From: Candidatus Nanopelagicales bacterium
GTDB taxonomy: Bacteria > Actinomycetota > Actinomycetes > S36-B12
Length of the DNA: 55,522 bases
Direction: 5' to 3'
NCBI GenBank assembly: GCA_018402075.1
Contig: JAGYJP010000009.1
Coordinates: forward strand, 1-55,522
Within the stretch, counting starts at the first letter, position 1; each line of letters begins with the position of its first letter. Positions 17,899 to 24,877 of this stretch are shown piece after piece. A model generated the notes under the pieces. It was given only the letters and a program-made list of their open reading frames with translations. It ran no database searches and had not been told where the DNA came from. Made by a program: the position numbers and the translations under genes.

Positions 17899-18258
17899 CT
17901 AATCTATGTCGACACCCATGGCCTCGATCATGCGCGTGCGCCTGACTCCCATTGCTGGTCGATTGACACCATCTGCTTCATGGTCTGCATGAACGAAGGT
18001 TGCTCCATTGACTATCCCCTCGCCCATGCCGTACAACAAAGGAAGCGCACCAGCAACAACACGACCAGTGGTGTTTATGGATGTCAGACCTGGTTCAATT
18101 AACGCCGCATCATTTTTAATCGCCCACACTAATTCGGCCGATTCTTCGAGATTAGCAGCGACTTTCTTCAATTGCGATCCAACAATGAACAGGTAGATCG
18201 CTAACCCTGCAATAAGCAAAGCGACGTCAATGACTGACCACCACTGCAATGAACTCAT
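17899..18258 (-). CDS. Small one-helix membrane protein 5 of the cox membrane array
   Basis: A 119-residue protein with one N-terminal helix (about residues 8-26) and a soluble remainder beginning QLKKVAANLEESAELVWAIK, an amphipathic stretch, then GRVVAGALPLLYGMG. No cysteines and no known motif. It starts within the stop of the preceding small gene (ATGA overlap), so it is translationally coupled. Last of five such genes downstream of coxG. Function unknown. Confidence 0.75.
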   Translation of the reverse strand: MSSLQWWSVIDVALLIAGLAIYLFIVGSQLKKVAANLEESAELVWAIKNDAALIEPGLTSINTTGRVVAGALPLLYGMGEGIVNGATFVHADHEADGVNRPAMGVRRTRMIEAMGVDID

Positions 18259-18530
18259 GAGCGCACCTTGTCCAGTACTCGTCCGAGGAATAAATGATGT
18301 TCAAGACCCTCCGCCAAAACTGCTTCCACGCCACCTGCGGTTACGCCAATGAGCGCGGTATCAGCGGTGTTGTTCTTGGCCGCCTGTAGCGTCGCCTTTA
18401 TTTTTACCACCCTTGTGTGAATGCGATGCACGAATATCACAAGAAGCGTGAGTAGTGCGGCTACCGCCACGACAACCACGATTCCTAAGACATTTGCGAT
18501 CATCCATAACTGTTCGGTTTGGGCATCCAT
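18255..18530 (-). CDS. Small one-helix membrane protein 4 of the cox membrane array
   Basis: A 91-residue protein with a strong helix (about 12-34, IANVLGIVVVVAVAALLTLL) followed by a basic stretch HRIHTRVVKIKATLQAAKNN and a glycine-rich tail. The topology matches its neighbours: an N-terminal anchor, then an amphipathic helix with an NT-type turn. Good Shine-Dalgarno AGGAGGATGAC. Function unknown. Confidence 0.75.
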   Translation of the reverse strand: MDAQTEQLWMIANVLGIVVVVAVAALLTLLVIFVHRIHTRVVKIKATLQAAKNNTADTALIGVTAGGVEAVLAEGLEHHLFLGRVLDKVRS

Positions 18531-18531
18531 G

Positions 18532-18786
18532 TCATCCTCCTAACCTGGTACGGCCGCGCTTGAGCCCAGCGATGACTGCCAATGCAGATGTAATTGTTTC
18601 GTTGAGGCCCGCAAGTCCAGCGGTATTTGTCTCAGCCTGCTCCAAACCCTCGAGGATGTTGCCAGCTTGGGTGCCAATTCTCCATGCAATTACCAGAATC
18701 GGAATAACGAGTGCAACCACAACGAGAACCACAACCAGCCCAATGATGTAGCCGATTAGCCAGCCTTCATGTCCAGAGAAATCCAT
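18532..18786 (-). CDS. Small one-helix membrane protein 3 of the cox membrane array
   Basis: An 84-residue protein with one helix (about 10-34) then GNILEGLEQAETNTAGLAGLNETI, an amphipathic helix, and a basic C-terminus (GLKRGRTRLGG). Strong Shine-Dalgarno AGGAGGGTTC before ATG. No cysteine or catalytic motif. It resembles the flanking genes in layout more than in exact sequence. Function unknown. Confidence 0.75.
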   Translation of the reverse strand: MDFSGHEGWLIGYIIGLVVVLVVVALVIPILVIAWRIGTQAGNILEGLEQAETNTAGLAGLNETITSALAVIAGLKRGRTRLGG

Positions 18787-18795
18787 GAACCCTCC

Positions 18796-19023
18796 TTAGA
18801 TCGAATTGGCAAAGTCGCGGACAGGGGCCAAACTCGCATTAACCGATGCGACTACCGGAACAACGGTCGACGTCTGGGCGGCAATAACCTGAACTCCACC
18901 GTCGAGCGTGTCCAAGGTCTTCTCGGTCGCGGCAAGATGTCCAATGGCGCGAGAAAGACCGAGGGCGGCGGCACCGATAATCAGTGCTCCGAGAATGAGC
19001 GTAATAACTGCATCAATTGGCAT
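18796..19023 (-). CDS. Small one-helix membrane protein 2 of the cox membrane array
   Basis: A 75-residue protein with an N-terminal helix (about 4-24) then SRAIGHLAATEKTLDTLDGGVQVI. The TLDGGV segment is shared with the next upstream gene, suggesting common ancestry. Strong Shine-Dalgarno AGGAGAAGTT. It could be membrane-anchored with a short helical tail lying on the membrane. Function unknown. Confidence 0.75.
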   Translation of the reverse strand: MPIDAVITLILGALIIGAAALGLSRAIGHLAATEKTLDTLDGGVQVIAAQTSTVVPVVASVNASLAPVRDFANSI

Positions 19024-19031
19024 AACTTCTC

Positions 19032-19286
19032 CTATCCCAGCAACTTAGAAACCGGACCGGCATAGCGCACCGCACCGTTGGCCACTTCTTTTATGACAAC
19101 ATCTGTCGTTGCAAGTAACTCTGGCGTGTTGTGTAACGCACCAATGAGTGCCACGCCACCATCGAGGGTGTCTTGCGCCGCAGCACGGATTTGCTCAAGC
19201 GCCGCGAGTAGCCGGTTAAGCAGCATAACCAGCAGTGGCACCACCACAATGAGGAGAATTAGATTTCCCCACATCCATAGACTCAT
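19032..19286 (-). CDS. Small one-helix membrane protein 1 of the cox membrane array
   Basis: An 84-residue protein with a helix at about 4-25 (WMWGNLILLIVVVPLLVML) then LLAALEQIRAAAQDTLDGGVALIGAL. DTLDGGV is nearly identical to the segment in gene 2, evidence of duplication. Shine-Dalgarno GGAGGTAATTAA is strong. It follows coxG by 15 bp and is surely cotranscribed with it. Function unknown; a role in fixing CO dehydrogenase or CoxG at the membrane is an inference. Confidence 0.78.
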   Translation of the reverse strand: MSLWMWGNLILLIVVVPLLVMLLNRLLAALEQIRAAAQDTLDGGVALIGALHNTPELLATTDVVIKEVANGAVRYAGPVSKLLG

Positions 19287-19301: not shown

Positions 19302-19889
19302 CTAACGGCTAGGTGCCGATTGATAGGGCAGGAAGAACCGGGCAAATACTCTTTTCACAGCCATGGAAAAAGCACTGAAACCAATTGCGAGACCACTGGC
19401 CGCCTTGGGCCCCCCAACTGACATTGGGTCGCGACCTTCGGCGATCGCGGTCATCCGCATTTTCATGGATCCCGCGGTTTGGGTCACTAGAACCCCGGTG
19501 AAGTCTTTAACCAATCCGCGACCGTACTGAGCCGCGGCGCCTGAAATGGCAAGGTCCATGCTCATGTTTACCCGTGTCTGGCCACCAAGTGGAACGAGAG
19601 AGATGTCTAGCATTGCACTAGCTGACCCGCGACCCTTTTTGTCCGCGCCGGAAGCATCGAGCACGATCACCTTTCGAGCGTCGTCGCGGCTCTTAATTTT
19701 GACCACTCCCGTGAACTCCAACTTCACCGGACCAGCCGAGATTGTGACATCTCCACGGTATTCGTCGTCACTCACCTTTTCGGTGAGGTCCGCACCGGGA
19801 ATGCACGCTGCAACCAGGGGAATGTCATCGAAGAAATTCCACACTTGTTCGACCGGCTGATCCATGTCGAAGGTTTGGGTAATTAACAT
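19302..19889 (-). CDS. coxG: CoxG, SRPBCC-family CO dehydrogenase membrane partner
   Basis: A 195-residue protein. Residues 1-150 form the SRPBCC/CoxG lipid-binding fold (VEQVWNFFDDIPLVAACIPG at the start, GDVTISAGPVKLEFTG, YGRGLVKDF). The C-terminus about 160-190 is hydrophobic and basic (AIGFSAFSMAVKRVFARFF), a likely membrane-binding helix. CoxG is needed for membrane association of CO dehydrogenase in Oligotropha and has been reported to carry menaquinone to the enzyme in mycobacteria. Strong Shine-Dalgarno GGGAGGTTCC; 7-bp overlap with the XdhC-YHS gene. Confidence 0.9.
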   Translation of the reverse strand: MLITQTFDMDQPVEQVWNFFDDIPLVAACIPGADLTEKVSDDEYRGDVTISAGPVKLEFTGVVKIKSRDDARKVIVLDASGADKKGRGSASAMLDISLVPLGGQTRVNMSMDLAISGAAAQYGRGLVKDFTGVLVTQTAGSMKMRMTAIAEGRDPMSVGGPKAASGLAIGFSAFSMAVKRVFARFFLPYQSAPSR

Positions 19890-20839
19890 GGAACCTCCCG
19901 CTTGATGAATTTTTCTGGATCTTTTTCAAACGCCACCCGACACCCAGGGGCGCAGAAGTAGTAGGTGACTCCGTGATATTCGAAGGGCCTGTTTTCGGGG
20001 ACTGAGGCAACCGTCATATTGCACACCAGGTCGATTACCTCTTCAGGTTCCACCTTGGTTGACTGATTCACCAGCACCGGTCGTAATTCTCCCGCCGCAC
20101 GCCTTTGGACTAATTCGCCAAGGATTGCCACAGCTATTTCCCGATGCGTGGTATGCCCAAGATCCAGCCCTACCGGGACGTGAACGGATGACAATTTTTC
20201 CGAAGAGACACCACGATCAAGCAGGTAGCCCTTAACAGCTTCCCCACGCTTGGCCGAGGCCACCAGCCCGATAAATGCAGGACTTCCGGCCAGAGCGGTC
20301 TCCAAAACTTCTTCATCGCCATGCCCCTGCGTAGCCACAATCACGATGCTGCCCGAGTGCACCATGTCGGCGGTGAATGCCGACCCATCAATTAACTCGC
20401 CCCGCCAGCCCACACCCCGAACTAGTTCCAACAGGGTCACGGCCATGGGTGAGCGGCCAACAATCACCACTTCGGGTGCGACGAGAACCGGCTCAATATA
20501 GAGCTGCAGTGCCCCTTCGCTTTGGCACGACATGGGAATCGTCAGAACCCCATCCGGGATGTGCATGTCGGCGAAATCATCATCTTGACCGAGCCAGATC
20601 AAAGAGGGTTCACCCGCAGCCAGGACTCTTTTCGCTTCTCGGATCACAACCGGCTCAGCACATGCGCCACCAATCCAGCCGTGCAGTTGCCCATCAGAGG
20701 TGATTACCGCTTTTGAACCATGCTGGCCCGACGATGGTGGCTTACGCCAAACGACTGTGGCAAGCGCATAAGACTGTCCGGTGCGAGCAAGTTGAACCGC
20801 AAACTCCATGATGTCCATACTGCTGTTAGTTTCATTCAT
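19883..20839 (-). CDS. XdhC/CoxI-family protein fused to a C-terminal YHS metal-binding domain
   Basis: A 318-residue two-part protein. Residues about 10-250 are an XdhC/CoxI protein: the loop GWIGGACAEPVV carries C60, and VVIVGRSPMAVTLLEL begins a Rossmann fold ending in VGLDLGHTTHREIAVAIL. XdhC proteins bind Moco and deliver it, sulfurated, to molybdenum hydroxylases. Residues about 268-312 are a YHS/TRASH-like domain with C273 (DLVCNMTV) and C296/C300 (YYFCAPGC), a set known in copper and heavy-metal proteins. It lies 1 bp after coxL and overlaps coxG. It could bring copper to the Mo-S-Cu site (inference). Confidence 0.88.
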   Translation of the reverse strand: MNETNSSMDIMEFAVQLARTGQSYALATVVWRKPPSSGQHGSKAVITSDGQLHGWIGGACAEPVVIREAKRVLAAGEPSLIWLGQDDDFADMHIPDGVLTIPMSCQSEGALQLYIEPVLVAPEVVIVGRSPMAVTLLELVRGVGWRGELIDGSAFTADMVHSGSIVIVATQGHGDEEVLETALAGSPAFIGLVASAKRGEAVKGYLLDRGVSSEKLSSVHVPVGLDLGHTTHREIAVAILGELVQRRAAGELRPVLVNQSTKVEPEEVIDLVCNMTVASVPENRPFEYHGVTYYFCAPGCRVAFEKDPEKFIKREVPC

Positions 20840-20840
20840 A

Positions 20841-23225
20841 TTAATCGCTCAGCACCGGTGGCATTCCCGAGATATTTTTTCCCGTTTGCAGTGCTTCATA
20901 GACGCGATTAGGCATGAGTGGCATGTCAACATTGCGAACACCTGTGTGCTCAATGGCATTCATCACCGCGTTCACAAACGCGGCGGGCCCAGCCACCGTC
21001 GCGCATTCACCGACACCTTTGGCCCCGATCGGATGGTGGGGGCACGGAGTAACCACCTCATGCAGCTCGAAACCGGGGGTCTCCCACGAGGTGGGAATGA
21101 GATAGTCCATGTAGTTGGCTCCAATGCAGTTACCTTCTTCATCAAAGGTGATGTACTGCATATTCGCCATTGCGTACGCTTCGGTCAGTCCGCCCATTAC
21201 CTGTCCTTCGACAATCATTGGGTTAATGCGCACACCGCAGTCGTCCACGGCAACGAAATTCAGGACATCCCATACGCCAGTTTGTGCATCGACTTCTACT
21301 TTGCAGAAATAGGCTGCGAACGGCCAGGTCAAGTTGGGGGGATCGTAATAAGACGTATTCTCTAATCCTGGTTCCAGTCCGTCTGGGACGTTGCTATACG
21401 CAGCGAGTGCGCAATCTTGAATGGTCACGCCGCGTTCTTGATTACCACGGATATAAAACCGCCCTAACTCCCACTCAATGTCTTCTTCAGAAACTTCAAG
21501 AAGATGGGCTGCGATTTTGCGTGCCTTCGCCCGAATTTTGCGAGAAGCCATGGCGACGGCTGCACCAGCAACGGGTGTTGATCGGGACGCATAGGTTCCC
21601 ATTCCGAAGGGAGCCGTGTCAGTATCGCCCTCTTCTACCACAATGTCATCGGCAGGAATTCCGAGTTCGTGAGCCACGATTTGCGCCCACGTGGTCTCGT
21701 GACCTTGACCTTGAGTCTTCGCACCCGTTCGCAGGATTGCCTTACCTGTCATGTGTACGCGCAACTCAGCTGAGTCGAACATCTTGATACCGATGATGTC
21801 GTACTCCCGACTATTTCCGGCACCGAGTGGCTCGGTCATGGTGGAAATTCCGATACCCAGTAACTTTCCGCGCTTGCGAGCTTCTTCTTGCTCCTGCTTG
21901 AAGGTGCTGTACCCGATTGCCTCCAAGCCAACGTCAAGGCATTTCCCGTATTGACCGGAATCGGTGAGGAAGCCAAAAGCGGTGCGATAAGGGAACATGT
22001 CGTCGCTGACCAAGTTCACTCGACGGAACTCTGCTTGATCCATGCCCAAGTCATTCGCGGCCGCATGCACCATGCGCTCCTGGAAGAACATAGCTTCGGT
22101 GACCCGGAATGAACACCGATATGCCACACCTCCCGGCGCCTTGTTCGTGTAATAACCCTCACTGACAAGGTGGGCTGCGGGTATGTCGTAGCACGCAAAT
22201 GCTGAGTGCATCAGACCAATTTTGAACTTGGTAGGTTGAGCATCCGCGAAGAATGCACCGTGATCAGAGATCGTGTGCATGCGCATTCCCAGGATTTTTC
22301 CGTCTTTTCGGAGGGCCAACTCTCCCTCAAGGTAAACATCCCTACCAAAACCGGTAGAAATCAAGTTACTTGACTTGTCTTCAACCCACTTGACGGGGCA
22401 TTCGGTCAGAATTGATGCAAGAATCGAAATCACGTATCCCGGATAAATGGGAACCTTGTTTCCGAAGCCGCCACCAAGATCGGGGGAAATAATCCGAATC
22501 ATGTGCTCGGGCAACTCAGCAACCATGGCTACGGCAGCACGAACAATGTGAGGTGCCTGCGAGGTCATGTAGACGGTTAATTTCCCGCTGGATCGATCAT
22601 AATCAGCGATTGAACCGCAGGTTTCCAATGGCGACGGATGCGAGCGCGGATAGTGCAGATCCATCTTTGACACGACGTCCGCCTCAGCGAATGCCCGGTC
22701 GGTTGCTTCCTTATCGCCTATCTCCCAGTCGAAAATCTTATTTGACGTTTGGTTTTCTTTGTCGTCGCGGATCAGGGGTGCATCGGGGCTCTGAGCCTGA
22801 ATCGGATTAACAATCACCGGTAATTGTTCGTACTCAACCACGATCTTGTCGAGTGCATCTCTGGCGATATACGGGTTGTCTGCTACAACCGCCGCAACCT
22901 CTTGCCCCTGAAAACGAACCTTGTCTGTTGCGAGCACTGCTTGAGTGTCATAAGAAAGGGTTGGCATCCAGGCCAGGTTTCGTGCAGCCATGGTCTCTCC
23001 GGTCATGACCAGTCGAACTCCAGGAACCTCCCAAGCCGCACTGGTATCAATGGATTTAATGCGGGCGTGGGCAACAGGGCTACGCAGGATTTCCACGTGC
23101 AACATGCCGGGCAACACAATGTCGTCGACATAACGGCCCTTGCCACGAATAAAACGGTTGTCTTCTACCCGGCGGCGGCTCGCACCCATTCCACCAATTT
23201 TGAGTTCGTCAAGCGGTGCCATCAT
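20841..23225 (-). CDS. coxL: Aerobic CO dehydrogenase large subunit, form I
   Basis: The molybdopterin-cytosine-dinucleotide catalytic subunit that oxidises CO to CO2 at a Mo-S-Cu site. The form I signature AYRCSFR is at residues 368-374, with C371 as the copper-binding cysteine; form II enzymes have AYRGAGR instead. Other Mo-hydroxylase blocks are [18 protein letters not shown] near the start, [24 protein letters not shown], and [18 protein letters not shown] near the end (active-site Glu). ATG at 23225 overlaps the coxS stop as ATGA; the longer start 23264 would overlap it more. The 794-residue length is normal. Confidence 0.97.
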
Positions 23226-23755
23226 GCCTCCTGATTTTGTTCGCGCATTTTCTTTGCAGCCCAAAGGACTGACTTAACGATGTTTTGGTATCCGGTGCAG
23301 CGGCAGAGGTTGCCAGACAATGCCCAACGAACTTCGTCTTCGGTTGGATCGGGATTTCGCTCAAGAAGCGCCTTGGCTGAGATCATCATGCCGGGCGTGC
23401 AAAATCCACATTGGAGACCGTGCTCCTCTTTGAAACCTTCTTGAATGGGGTGCAATTCGCTAGCCGTTGCAAGACCTTCCACCGTTTCTACTTCTCGGCC
23501 ATTTGCCTGAACAGCCAAGACGGTGCAGCTCTTCACGGGACGGCCATCCATTAAAACGGTGCACGCGCCGCAACCGGACGTGTCGCAACCACTGTGCGTT
23601 CCGGTGAGTTGCAATGCTTGGCGCAACAGGTGCGCGAGAAGTAGCCGTGGCTCCACATCGACGGTTCGGTCAGTTCCGTTTACATTAACCGTGATCCGGC
23701 GAACTTCCACTCCTGCAGCAGGAGCTGCCTGTACTTCGTCATAGAGGCTTGTCAT
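23222..23755 (-). CDS. coxS: CO dehydrogenase small iron-sulfur subunit
   Basis: A 177-residue subunit with two [2Fe-2S] clusters, passing electrons from the molybdenum site to FAD. The N-terminal ferredoxin-type cluster is in [17 protein letters not shown] with a fourth cysteine in KSCTVLA; the C-terminal cluster is in QCGFCTPGM and [12 protein letters not shown]. An N-terminal extension of about 15 residues is present. It lies between coxM (2 bp) and coxL (4-bp overlap), the M-S-L order of form I operons. Confidence 0.97.
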
Positions 23756-23757
23756 GT

Positions 23758-24630
23758 TCAGGCTGCTTTCTGCTCGCTGTTGGCAATGTTGGACAGTATT
23801 CGAGTGACAAATGTTTCCACGATGTGGCGTTTATAAGAGGATGATCCTCGGTGATCGGTGCGTGGCTCCGCGGCCGCAGCAACTGCTTCGGCTGTCTGTT
23901 TAATGCTCTCTTCATTCAGAGACTTACCCACCAGTACCGAGATTGCGTCATTTGCATCGATGGTCCGACCTCCAACTCCAGCAAGGGCACATCCGGCTCG
24001 CGTCACGACGTCACCGTCAACGTCCAGGGCTACGGCAACCGAAGCCGTGGCGAAGTCACCAACGCGACGCTCCAACTTGAGGTAACCCCCGAGAGCTTTA
24101 CCTTGTGCCGGTGGAACGGTCGCTTCTACCGCGATCTCATTGAATGCGAGCGCATTGACGAACGGTCCAAGGACAAAGTCACTTGCTGCGATCTCCCGGC
24201 GACCATTTGGTCCCTGTGCAATGATTTTTCCACCAAGGGCAATCATGGTTGCGGACCAATCGCCCTGTGGGTCAGCGTGGCACAGTGAACCAACAAAAGT
24301 TCCCCGGGTACGCACGATTGGATCCGCAACAAGGGACGCTGCCTGCGCCAAGGTCGGGAAGTTGCCGAGAATTGTGCTGAATTCCAGATCCTCGTGTCGG
24401 CAAAGAGCACCAATGCGCAAAGTGCCGTCGGCATCAATACGGTGGTATTCCAAGCCGGGAATCCCATTGATGTCGACTACGCGCGCGGGAGAGGCGAAAC
24501 GAAGTTTGAGCATGGGGATCAGGCTTTGGCCTCCGGCCAACACTTTTGCCTCTCCACCATTTTGGTCAAGGATCGCAATAGCTTCTTCGACAGAAGTTGG
24601 TGCGTCGTAGGAAAATCGTGACGGGTACAT
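23758..24630 (-). CDS. coxM: CO dehydrogenase medium FAD subunit
   Basis: A 290-residue FAD-binding subunit of the CO dehydrogenase. [13 protein letters not shown] (FAD pyrophosphate loop, near residues 32-44) and [17 protein letters not shown] (second FAD motif near 110) are canonical. The ATG at 24630 has the strong Shine-Dalgarno GAAGAGGAGCAA and begins [11 protein letters not shown], the usual N-terminus; an in-frame start at 24750 would cross the small upstream gene. First of the structural genes. Confidence 0.96.
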
Positions 24631-24646
24631 TTGCTCCTCTTCTGCT

Positions 24647-24877
24647 TTAGTGACCGGTGTCGGGAATGGCTGTTGGCATGGAATCTGCATCGGGATCGGG
24701 GCGTGGCTCTTGGTGCGGCGGCCATGGGCCTTGAACAGGCTGGCCCGCAACTTTCAAAAATTCAACGAACTGTGGAAAAGCCCACACCGTTGGGCTCTCG
24801 CCAGTTTTCGGGGAGTTTTCAATGAGAGCAAACATGCGCGGGTTTCCGCGCTCCTGCCCTGAGGATTCAACCGGCAT
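24647..24877 (-). CDS. Small proline-rich protein ahead of coxM, tentative
   Basis: A 76-residue reading frame ending 16 bp before coxM, with AAGGGG at 6-7 bp before its ATG. The sequence has a central hydrophobic patch (VWAFPQFVEFLKVAG) then a proline- and aspartate-rich tail (PWPPHQEPRPDPDADS). It matches no family I know. Good ribosome site and operon position argue for translation; small size and odd composition argue caution. An internal ATG gives a 62-residue form. The 105 bp between it and the next gene (24878-24982) hold no gene and should carry the cox promoter. Confidence 0.45.
   Translation of the reverse strand: MPVESSGQERGNPRMFALIENSPKTGESPTVWAFPQFVEFLKVAGQPVQGPWPPHQEPRPDPDADSMPTAIPDTGH

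Follow-up and report, generated by a model that had tools for sequence, protein, structure and literature searches.

Five consecutive genes for small membrane proteins, here called P5 to P1, follow coxG in a carbon monoxide dehydrogenase (CODH) operon on a 55,522-nucleotide contig (JAGYJP010000009.1) from a Candidatus Nanopelagicales bacterium; this whole stretch is referred to below as the window. We found that the array is conserved in order behind CoxG in relatives, that homologous five-protein sets accompany [NiFe]-hydrogenases, and that a related CODH clade without the array has CoxG proteins ending in a transmembrane (TM) helix. We consider it reasonably probable that the array is a portable membrane dock, perhaps a quinone conduit as well, that CO and H2 oxidisers have in common and that in CODH replaces the CoxG anchor. 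The finding bears on an open question, namely by what means soluble CO dehydrogenases and high-affinity hydrogenases connect to the membrane and the quinone pool: the available part of one paper ascribes the membrane link of Hyd-1h to a partner still unknown (PMC7174314), and that of another calls electron input from CODH unclear (PMC6794299).

A preliminary description of the window had reported five consecutive genes of 75–119 amino acids (aa) behind coxG, with ribosome sites on all but the coupled last one. All five open reading frames (ORFs) are present there on the minus strand. Inspection by eye found Shine-Dalgarno-like stretches upstream of P5, P4, P3 and P2, and the P2 stop and P1 start overlap as ATGA. 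The array and CoxG are laid out as follows (AF2, AlphaFold2):

P5, 19032..19286, minus strand: 84 aa, first gene of the array; N-terminal TM helix; conserved C end RYAG.V.KLL.
P4, 18796..19023, minus strand: 75 aa; N-terminal TM helix, then invariant R25 and H29; conserved C end SVN.SL.PVR.F; P1 paralogue.
P3, 18532..18786, minus strand: 84 aa; TM helix and amphipathic stretch; conserved C end GL.RGR.RLGG; P2 paralogue.
P2, 18255..18530, minus strand: 91 aa; AF2 monomer predicted as a single long helix, the TM segment continuing as a cytosolic stalk.
P2 C end, within 18255..18530, minus strand: CODH-type signature EGLEHHLFLGRVL.KVR.
P1, 17899..18258, minus strand: 119 aa; ATGA overlap with the P2 stop; N-terminal helix in the AF2 model.
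P1 conserved motifs, within 17899..18258, minus strand: AGALPLLY..(A/G)E.IV and PA...RR.R.
CoxG, 19302..19889, minus strand: 195 aa, SRPBCC protein with a basic amphipathic C-terminal stretch and no TM tail; PF06240, E 7e-17.

We examined the best 80 of 253 stretches matching coxL, a sample biased to close relatives, and located the array genes in them by tblastn with each protein; draws of 296 genomes from the phylum and 166 from the window's order gave less biased tests. CoxG followed by P5-P4-P3-P2-P1, complete and in the same order, was present at 58 of the 80 loci, and at the other 22 a contig edge precedes completion of the array. The arrangement is therefore not a product of chance, and the five-gene order does recur beside coxL. 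Median gaps from CoxG onward are 12, 10, 12, 2 and −4 bases, with P2 and P1 abutting or overlapping in 57 of the 58 loci. Among these 80 best matches the closest coxL with a plausible group label (L003, Candidatus Nanopelagicales) stood at 98%; two at 99% (L001, L002) are labelled 'uncultured bacterium' and Bifidobacterium breve, the latter surely mislabelled. The ratio of non-synonymous to synonymous substitution rates (dN/dS) was 0.02–0.13 in the 19 of 25 gene pairs with computable dS (window against L003, L004, L007, L010 and L011), dS being saturated in the other six (8 of 30 when CoxG is included) and above 1 in most of the rest. Alignments of 35 rows (34 of the 58 loci plus the window) hold 18–28 invariant columns per family. 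Gene calls in high-GC loci were mechanical. We conclude that each of the five is under purifying selection and that they are real genes rather than chance ORFs.

We next consider the proteins themselves. Hydropathy and charge patterns across 59 rows per family bear out the N-terminal membrane helix described for each protein, and AF2 models give helices for P2 and P1. Lys and Arg average 0–0.24 in the N-terminal flank against 1.6–4.3 in the 20 residues after the helix; because they are scarce before the helix and abundant behind it, the positive-inside rule predicts that all five have one helix with the N terminus out and the C terminus in, their tails facing the cytosol, where CODH is. With the 35-row alignments as input, the AF2 monomer of P2 was one helix (residues 3–90) with a mean predicted local distance difference test (pLDDT) score of 77 and a predicted template modelling (pTM) score of 0.41. 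P1 formed a helix at residues 3–54 with the remainder poorly defined (mean pLDDT 66, pTM 0.32). The amphipathic stretch said to follow each helix was clear in P1 and P3 (mean z 2.1 and 1.9) and moderate in P4 and P5 (1.1 and 1.0), but weak in P2 (0.5). The window's five proteins do lack cysteine, as described, but this is not a family trait, since Cys occurs in P1 at 32, P4 at 24, P2 at 5 and P3 at 1 of the 58 loci (P5, none). Across the 35-row alignments of all five families there is no invariant Cys and, within the TM helices, neither an invariant His nor an invariant charged residue. The absence of invariant Cys and TM-helix His gives no indication of a haem or iron–sulfur (FeS) site, and we rejected a haem or FeS carrier on this ground. 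No Pfam or NCBIfam family matched P1–P5 above its curated cut-off, and PDB profile searches with all five families returned designed coiled coils and chance matches alone, the best being P4 against a designed coiled coil (E 1.7e-6, with no single stretch passing). Weak matches to designed coiled coils or helical barrels came from the profiles of P1, P3 and P4 and may reflect composition only.

A P2 profile run over the 296 phylum genomes matched in 29. Sorted by surroundings, 11 matches lie at CODH/CoxG loci, 15 at [NiFe]-hydrogenase loci (the gene of one or other subunit, small or large, being visible) and three beside a protein of about 1600 aa with a DUF255 domain. The assignment covers one match per genome, leaving aside a weaker second one in G273. 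All six of the strongest matches (E <1e-40) have coxL on the same contig. P2-type proteins point to a large unannotated family: 6100 of 7997 candidates scored pass E 0.001, and none of the 120 listed has a Pfam domain. Profiles built from CODH rows alone matched all five proteins at hydrogenase locus L119 (P3 3e-18, P5 8e-15, P2 3e-14, P1 4e-13, P4 1e-8), so that we rejected an array unique to CODH. In PDB searches the L119 HhyL scored highest against HofG (5aa5, an actinobacterial-type hydrogenase), with 470 bits and a runner-up at 185, and the L129 HhyS against HofK, with 350 and a runner-up at 144.

The order HhyS-P3-P2-P1-P5-P4-HhyL occurs at four loci (L123, L127, L129 and L159) and, as far as the contig edge, at L106. 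Because the genes sit between HhyS and HhyL, the five homologues at these four loci are likely structural parts of the hydrogenase, which looks like group 1l by gene order only. Locus L119 holds NifU, a CbiA/NifH-like ATPase, P5 (92 aa), P4 (84 aa) and a P3-P2-P1 trio, a gene content that looks like a group 1m-type cluster; the trio accompanies the P5/P4 pair in the 1m-like clusters L119, L121 and L128. P1 of the 1l-like loci shares a YL.K.AFGVRA.E.QTG..GP.V.R.N.SL-type stretch with P1 of L119. Profiles for locus annotation were widened by iteration, which inflates the E values of incorporated rows, and labels are unsure where P1, P2 and P4 are mixed (L163–L165, L167) or a P1 segment is out of frame (L117, L124). 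An HhyL query over the phylum genomes matched in 42, and array-type genes (at least three) lay within the fetched stretch for 15 of the 19 rows scoring 788 bits or more, two of which are cut by contig ends; two such rows without array genes (L166, L186) are at contig edges. Shorter fragments of the same clade stand outside this count, both those without the array (L187–L189) and those with array genes (L190 (G230:C75), L127, L126 and G123:C19). HhyL genes of about 40% identity adjoin the array in L117 and L124, both of which also carry a closer HhyL. Locus L175, 1h-like and with no array beside its HhyL, shares a contig with a CODH-type array (L144), and plasmid records yielded 12 hydrogenases at 40–43% identity. 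CoxG was not found in the fetched stretches of hydrogenase-linked sets.

Longer relatives of about 200–330 aa (mechanical ORF calls), mostly ordered P3-type, P1-type, P3-type, stand beside the short array at L112 (2755-4868), L113 (6355-8283), L117 (11052-13281), L124 (4759-6875), L125 (10828-12937) and L144 (15983-18554). They seem to form an outer layer of this module.

Relationships among the five emerged from profile–profile comparison (hhalign), with CODH rows alone and then with hydrogenase-linked rows added. CODH rows alone joined P2 to P3 (97%, E 1e-11), weakly P4 to P1 (37%) and, over 16 columns only, P5 to P2 (37%), with no link between P5 and P4 (2.4%) or P2 and P1 (1%). Adding the hydrogenase-linked rows raised P1–P4 to 98.6%, P2–P3 to 98.3%, P2–P5 to 96.9% and P3–P5 to 95.5%, followed by P3–P4 (92%), P2–P4 (76%), P4–P5 (62%) and P1–P3 (54%); P1–P2 (5%) and P1–P5 (9%) remained low. 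Since profile links join them once these rows are included, all five probably descend from one ancestor. The proposed duplication thus holds in that the five are paralogues, but P4 and P5, with their DTLDGGV-type segments, are a weak link. That pair reached 2.4% with CODH rows only (61.7% with hydrogenase-linked rows), and we rejected it as the main link, the strong pairs being P2/P3 and P1/P4, and after these P5 with P2 and with P3.

We then asked which CODH enzymes have the array. A CoxL tree built from 51 rows, among them 24 sampled from the 80 loci, has a clade A that comprises the window, the 24 sampled loci and L113. Also within it are L134, which is cut by a contig edge, and L133, whose short set near CoxL consists of P5 and P4 only. 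L069 and L071 each carry, within the fetched stretch, a pair of coxL genes from different clades, of which one has the array and the other is array-less in type; the second copies, L069_b and L071_b, are labelled 'array' in this tree by default, although the array belongs to the other copy. Clade B (L130, L143 and L144) has divergent arrays upstream of coxM. No array was seen in the fetched stretches of a further 16 form I loci taken from the phylum (L131, L132, L135–L142, L145–L150), all 16 with AYXCSFR, or of 20 loci from the window's order with CoxL at 55–59% (L202–L221), all 20 with AYACSFR and hence form I. We therefore rejected the array as a general part of form I CODH, given its absence from these 36 stretches. 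The loop itself reads AYACSFR in L135–L140, L150 and L202–L221, and AYRCSFR in the window and the checked clade-B loci (L130, L143, L144).

The draw of 166 genomes from the window's order contains 50 with P2, 49 with clade-A CoxL (identity 80% or more) and 45 with both; P2 is absent from all 36 genomes whose only CoxL is of the 55–59% kind (Fisher p 4e-30 and 7e-20, without correction for kinship). P2 lies 1.4–2.4 kb from clade-A coxL in 37 of the 45 genomes, those with both on one contig. Contig breaks inside the operon explain seven fetched genomes of the nine with one gene only (G376, G447, G408, G405, G404, G369 and G399) and two, G409 and G335, fetched from the eight with the genes on different contigs; G370 and G466, with partial matches, fall outside this check. 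In a tree of joined array segments (36 rows), the CODH-A, CODH-B and 1l-like hydrogenase sets each form one clade (100/100), CODH-A groups with L112/L113 and the trios beside DUF255 proteins (100/99), and the 1m-like sets do not resolve as one clade; the lineages of the module thus run parallel to the type of enzyme. The large proteins at these trios (L111, L114, L115) all match PF03190 and have an N-terminal DUF255/thioredoxin domain in about 1600 aa. We rejected these neighbourhoods as a third enzyme type because the trios cluster with CODH-type arrays. In genome G176 the array is likelier split between two loci, since the trio at L115 groups with CODH-type arrays and the CODH locus, L133, has only P5 and P4. 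The P2 C-terminal motif EGLxHHLFLxRVL occurs in CODH-A, L112/L113 and the DUF255 trios, where it reads EGLQHHLFLTRVM, and is absent from P2 of the hydrogenase and CODH-B sets compared. This distribution suggests tails that bind the partner on a generic helix and stalk.

The CoxG C terminus divides along similar lines. In all 22 array-less loci of the 55–59% clade in which CoxG was found (L135–L138 and 18 of the 20 loci L202–L221), it ends in a TM helix, with a best 19-residue hydropathy of 2.15–3.25; this is the clade with the AYACSFR loop. Clade-A CoxG has a short amphipathic tail of mean hydropathy 1.14, with one of 59 above 1.6 (1.75), and clade-B CoxG (L130, L143) stops before any tail. 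The count covers loci with CoxG in the fetched stretch, and so excludes array-less L131, L132, L139, L140, L142, L147, L148, L150, L204 and L217, as well as L134 (contig edge) and array-bearing L144. Oligotropha coxG mutants, as described in the available part of PMC4240915, grow sevenfold more slowly on CO and lose particulate CODH, which suggests that the membrane link matters for CODH.

These results are consistent with the following model. P1–P5 would be the CODH-linked version of a five-part module that also serves group 1l- and 1m-looking [NiFe]-hydrogenases (HylTM1-5 and kin). Each protein would cross the membrane once, N terminus outside and C terminus inside, and its helix would extend into the cytosol as a stalk, with enzyme-specific C-terminal ends binding the soluble dehydrogenase, CoxG or both. 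Together the five would make a hetero-oligomeric dock that keeps CoxMSL, together with a CoxG lacking its own tether, on the cytoplasmic side of the membrane, where CoxG could ferry menaquinone the short distance between bilayer and enzyme. In the related CODH clade without the module, CoxG would be tethered by its own C-terminal TM helix. The dock or quinone-handling role first proposed for CODH thus fits the clade tie and the CoxG pattern, but the set is not specific to CODH, given the homologous hydrogenase sets. A broader statement, which we offer tentatively, is that repeated duplication of a single-helix protein gave rise to a five-protein membrane adaptor. This connector would be portable and probably include a quinone path; no fewer than two trace-gas enzymes unrelated to each other, Mo/Cu CO dehydrogenase and [NiFe]-hydrogenase, would have been equipped with it, and in CODH it would take the place of the CoxG TM anchor.

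Several points weigh against the dock. Four array-less loci (L141, L145, L146 and L149) have no CoxG TM tail either, so that either some enzymes do without an anchor or another element provides it. No array was seen in the fetched stretches of L161 and L162, hydrogenase loci of the array-bearing clade, or of any of 26 canonical 1h-like loci (L151–L158, L168–L185; HhyL of about 40% without a closer HhyL alongside), although group 1h enzymes are reported as membrane-associated in the available part of PMC7174314. P1 of the 1l-like loci was matched by the iterated profile only, not by the CODH-only profile, and at L111, L114 and L115 neither a CODH nor a hydrogenase gene is in view near the trios, which lie beside a 1600-aa DUF255 protein. 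The structural models number two, both AF2 monomers of modest confidence (pLDDT 77 for P2, 66 for P1). Complex formation, docking and quinone contact are what we infer from this material.

The main rival follows from the hydrogenase loci. As their fetched stretches yielded no CoxG, the module may itself have to give the enzyme access to quinone there, as HucM does for Huc. Five helices might then form a hollow hydrophobic stalk that conducts menaquinone from bilayer to enzyme, docking being a by-product. The clearly amphipathic stretches of P1 and P3, the HucM precedent of a coiled-coil tube that is amphipathic and has a hydrophobic lining (described in the available part of PMC10017518) and the weak coiled-coil and barrel matches, if more than composition, are in keeping with such a stalk. 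Yet CODH already has a proposed quinone carrier in CoxG, P2 is barely amphipathic, and no HucM chain appeared among the PDB matches of the five profiles (its presence there assumed from Huc entries 7utd and 7uus). We regard a conducting stalk as rather unlikely, though it is the foremost of the alternatives. More doubtful still is a role in assembly or quality control, in which the five would act while the enzyme is built and then leave: they share an operon with a maturation-type XdhC/CoxI gene, and their relatives at L119 adjoin NifU and the CbiA/NifH-like ATPase, but all five are predicted membrane proteins with no catalytic motif, in L123, L127, L129 and L159 they separate the S structural gene from the L gene, and the exchange with a CoxG TM tail points to anchoring. 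Five one-helix proteins could conceivably make a pore, moving ions or a small molecule or sensing membrane state, with a regulatory link to redox enzymes; we think this improbable, as invariant charged residues are absent from the TM helices and the genomic link is to enzymes. That unrelated small membrane genes merely chanced to follow coxG would agree with the 36 array-less form I loci, but is scarcely credible beside 58 complete arrays of 80 (the rest cut by contig edges), P2 in 45 of 49 clade-A genomes against none of 36 in the other clade, and homologous sets at hydrogenase operons.

The array stands in an operon whose minus-strand order is coxM-coxS-coxL, the XdhC-YHS gene, coxG and then P5, P4, P3, P2 and P1. 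The remaining genes are:

XdhC/CoxI-type maturation factor, 19883..20839, minus strand: YHS domain at the C terminus.
coxL, 20841..23264, minus strand: form I Mo-CODH large subunit; AYRCSFR loop; TIGR02416.
coxS, 23222..23755, minus strand: iron–sulfur subunit.
coxM, 23758..24750, minus strand: FAD subunit.

The window's enzyme bears the marks of form I Mo-CODH, namely the AYRCSFR loop, a form I profile match (TIGR02416, 1122.8 bits; cut-off 991.15) and the coxM and coxS domains. Its 807-aa coxL ORF begins within coxS, from TTG; many relatives have one stop codon within the aligned stretch, and the true start is therefore probably downstream of that TTG. The XdhC-YHS gene is not between coxL and coxG in array-bearing L007, L016 and L021–L024, and so lies outside the conserved CoxG–array block. 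Some close relatives have a second CoxG-like gene (about 34–35% identity) upstream of coxM (L005, 5760-6302; L197, 6013-6555; L201, 5603-6145).

How does the array compare with known systems? We found no paper linking the five to CODH in the openly licensed literature searched, where the name HylTM turned up in a single paper, and earlier notice elsewhere is possible. The system is not wholly undescribed, as had been supposed: the available part of PMC9561532, citing Ortiz et al. 2021 (its ref. 24), names a five-protein set between the small and large subunit genes of group 1l hydrogenase HylTM1-5. Those, too, are five short predicted TM proteins in one run, and the loci here with the same arrangement (L123, L127, L129, L159) carry homologues of all five. 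Homology of the window's set to these hydrogenase-locus sets is clear, the loci being 1l-like by gene order and HylTM1-5 itself compared by description. The sets differ in that HylTM1-5 are placed between subunit genes, whereas the window's genes stand behind CoxG in a CODH operon; in block order, P5-P4-P3-P2-P1 in the window against P3-P2-P1-P5-P4 at hydrogenase loci; and in the CODH-type C termini of the window's proteins, such as that of P2. For group 1m clusters the same source mentions two small single-TM proteins (82–92 aa), an FeS assembly protein and a CooC-type ATPase. The L119 pair beside NifU belongs to the P5 and P4 families, and L119 adds the P3-P2-P1 trio across the hydrogenase genes. 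HucM of the group 2a hydrogenase Huc is a candidate for a system that works alike, a helical stalk joining a soluble trace-gas oxidiser to membrane menaquinone, but is described in the available part of PMC10017518 as one 188-aa protein in four copies with peripheral membrane association. CoxG, too, is proposed to bring CODH to the membrane (PMC4240915 and PMC6794299, in the parts available) and to carry quinone (PMC13240472, in part, citing Kropp et al. 2025); it is an SRPBCC protein, with its own TM tail in the array-less 55–59% clade and none in the window. We rate the hydrogenase-linked five as already known, as HylTM1-5, and the link between two enzyme systems through CODH as new. A homologous module at both kinds of enzyme, together with a natural exchange with the CoxG tail within one bacterial order, makes the question of the membrane link directly testable.

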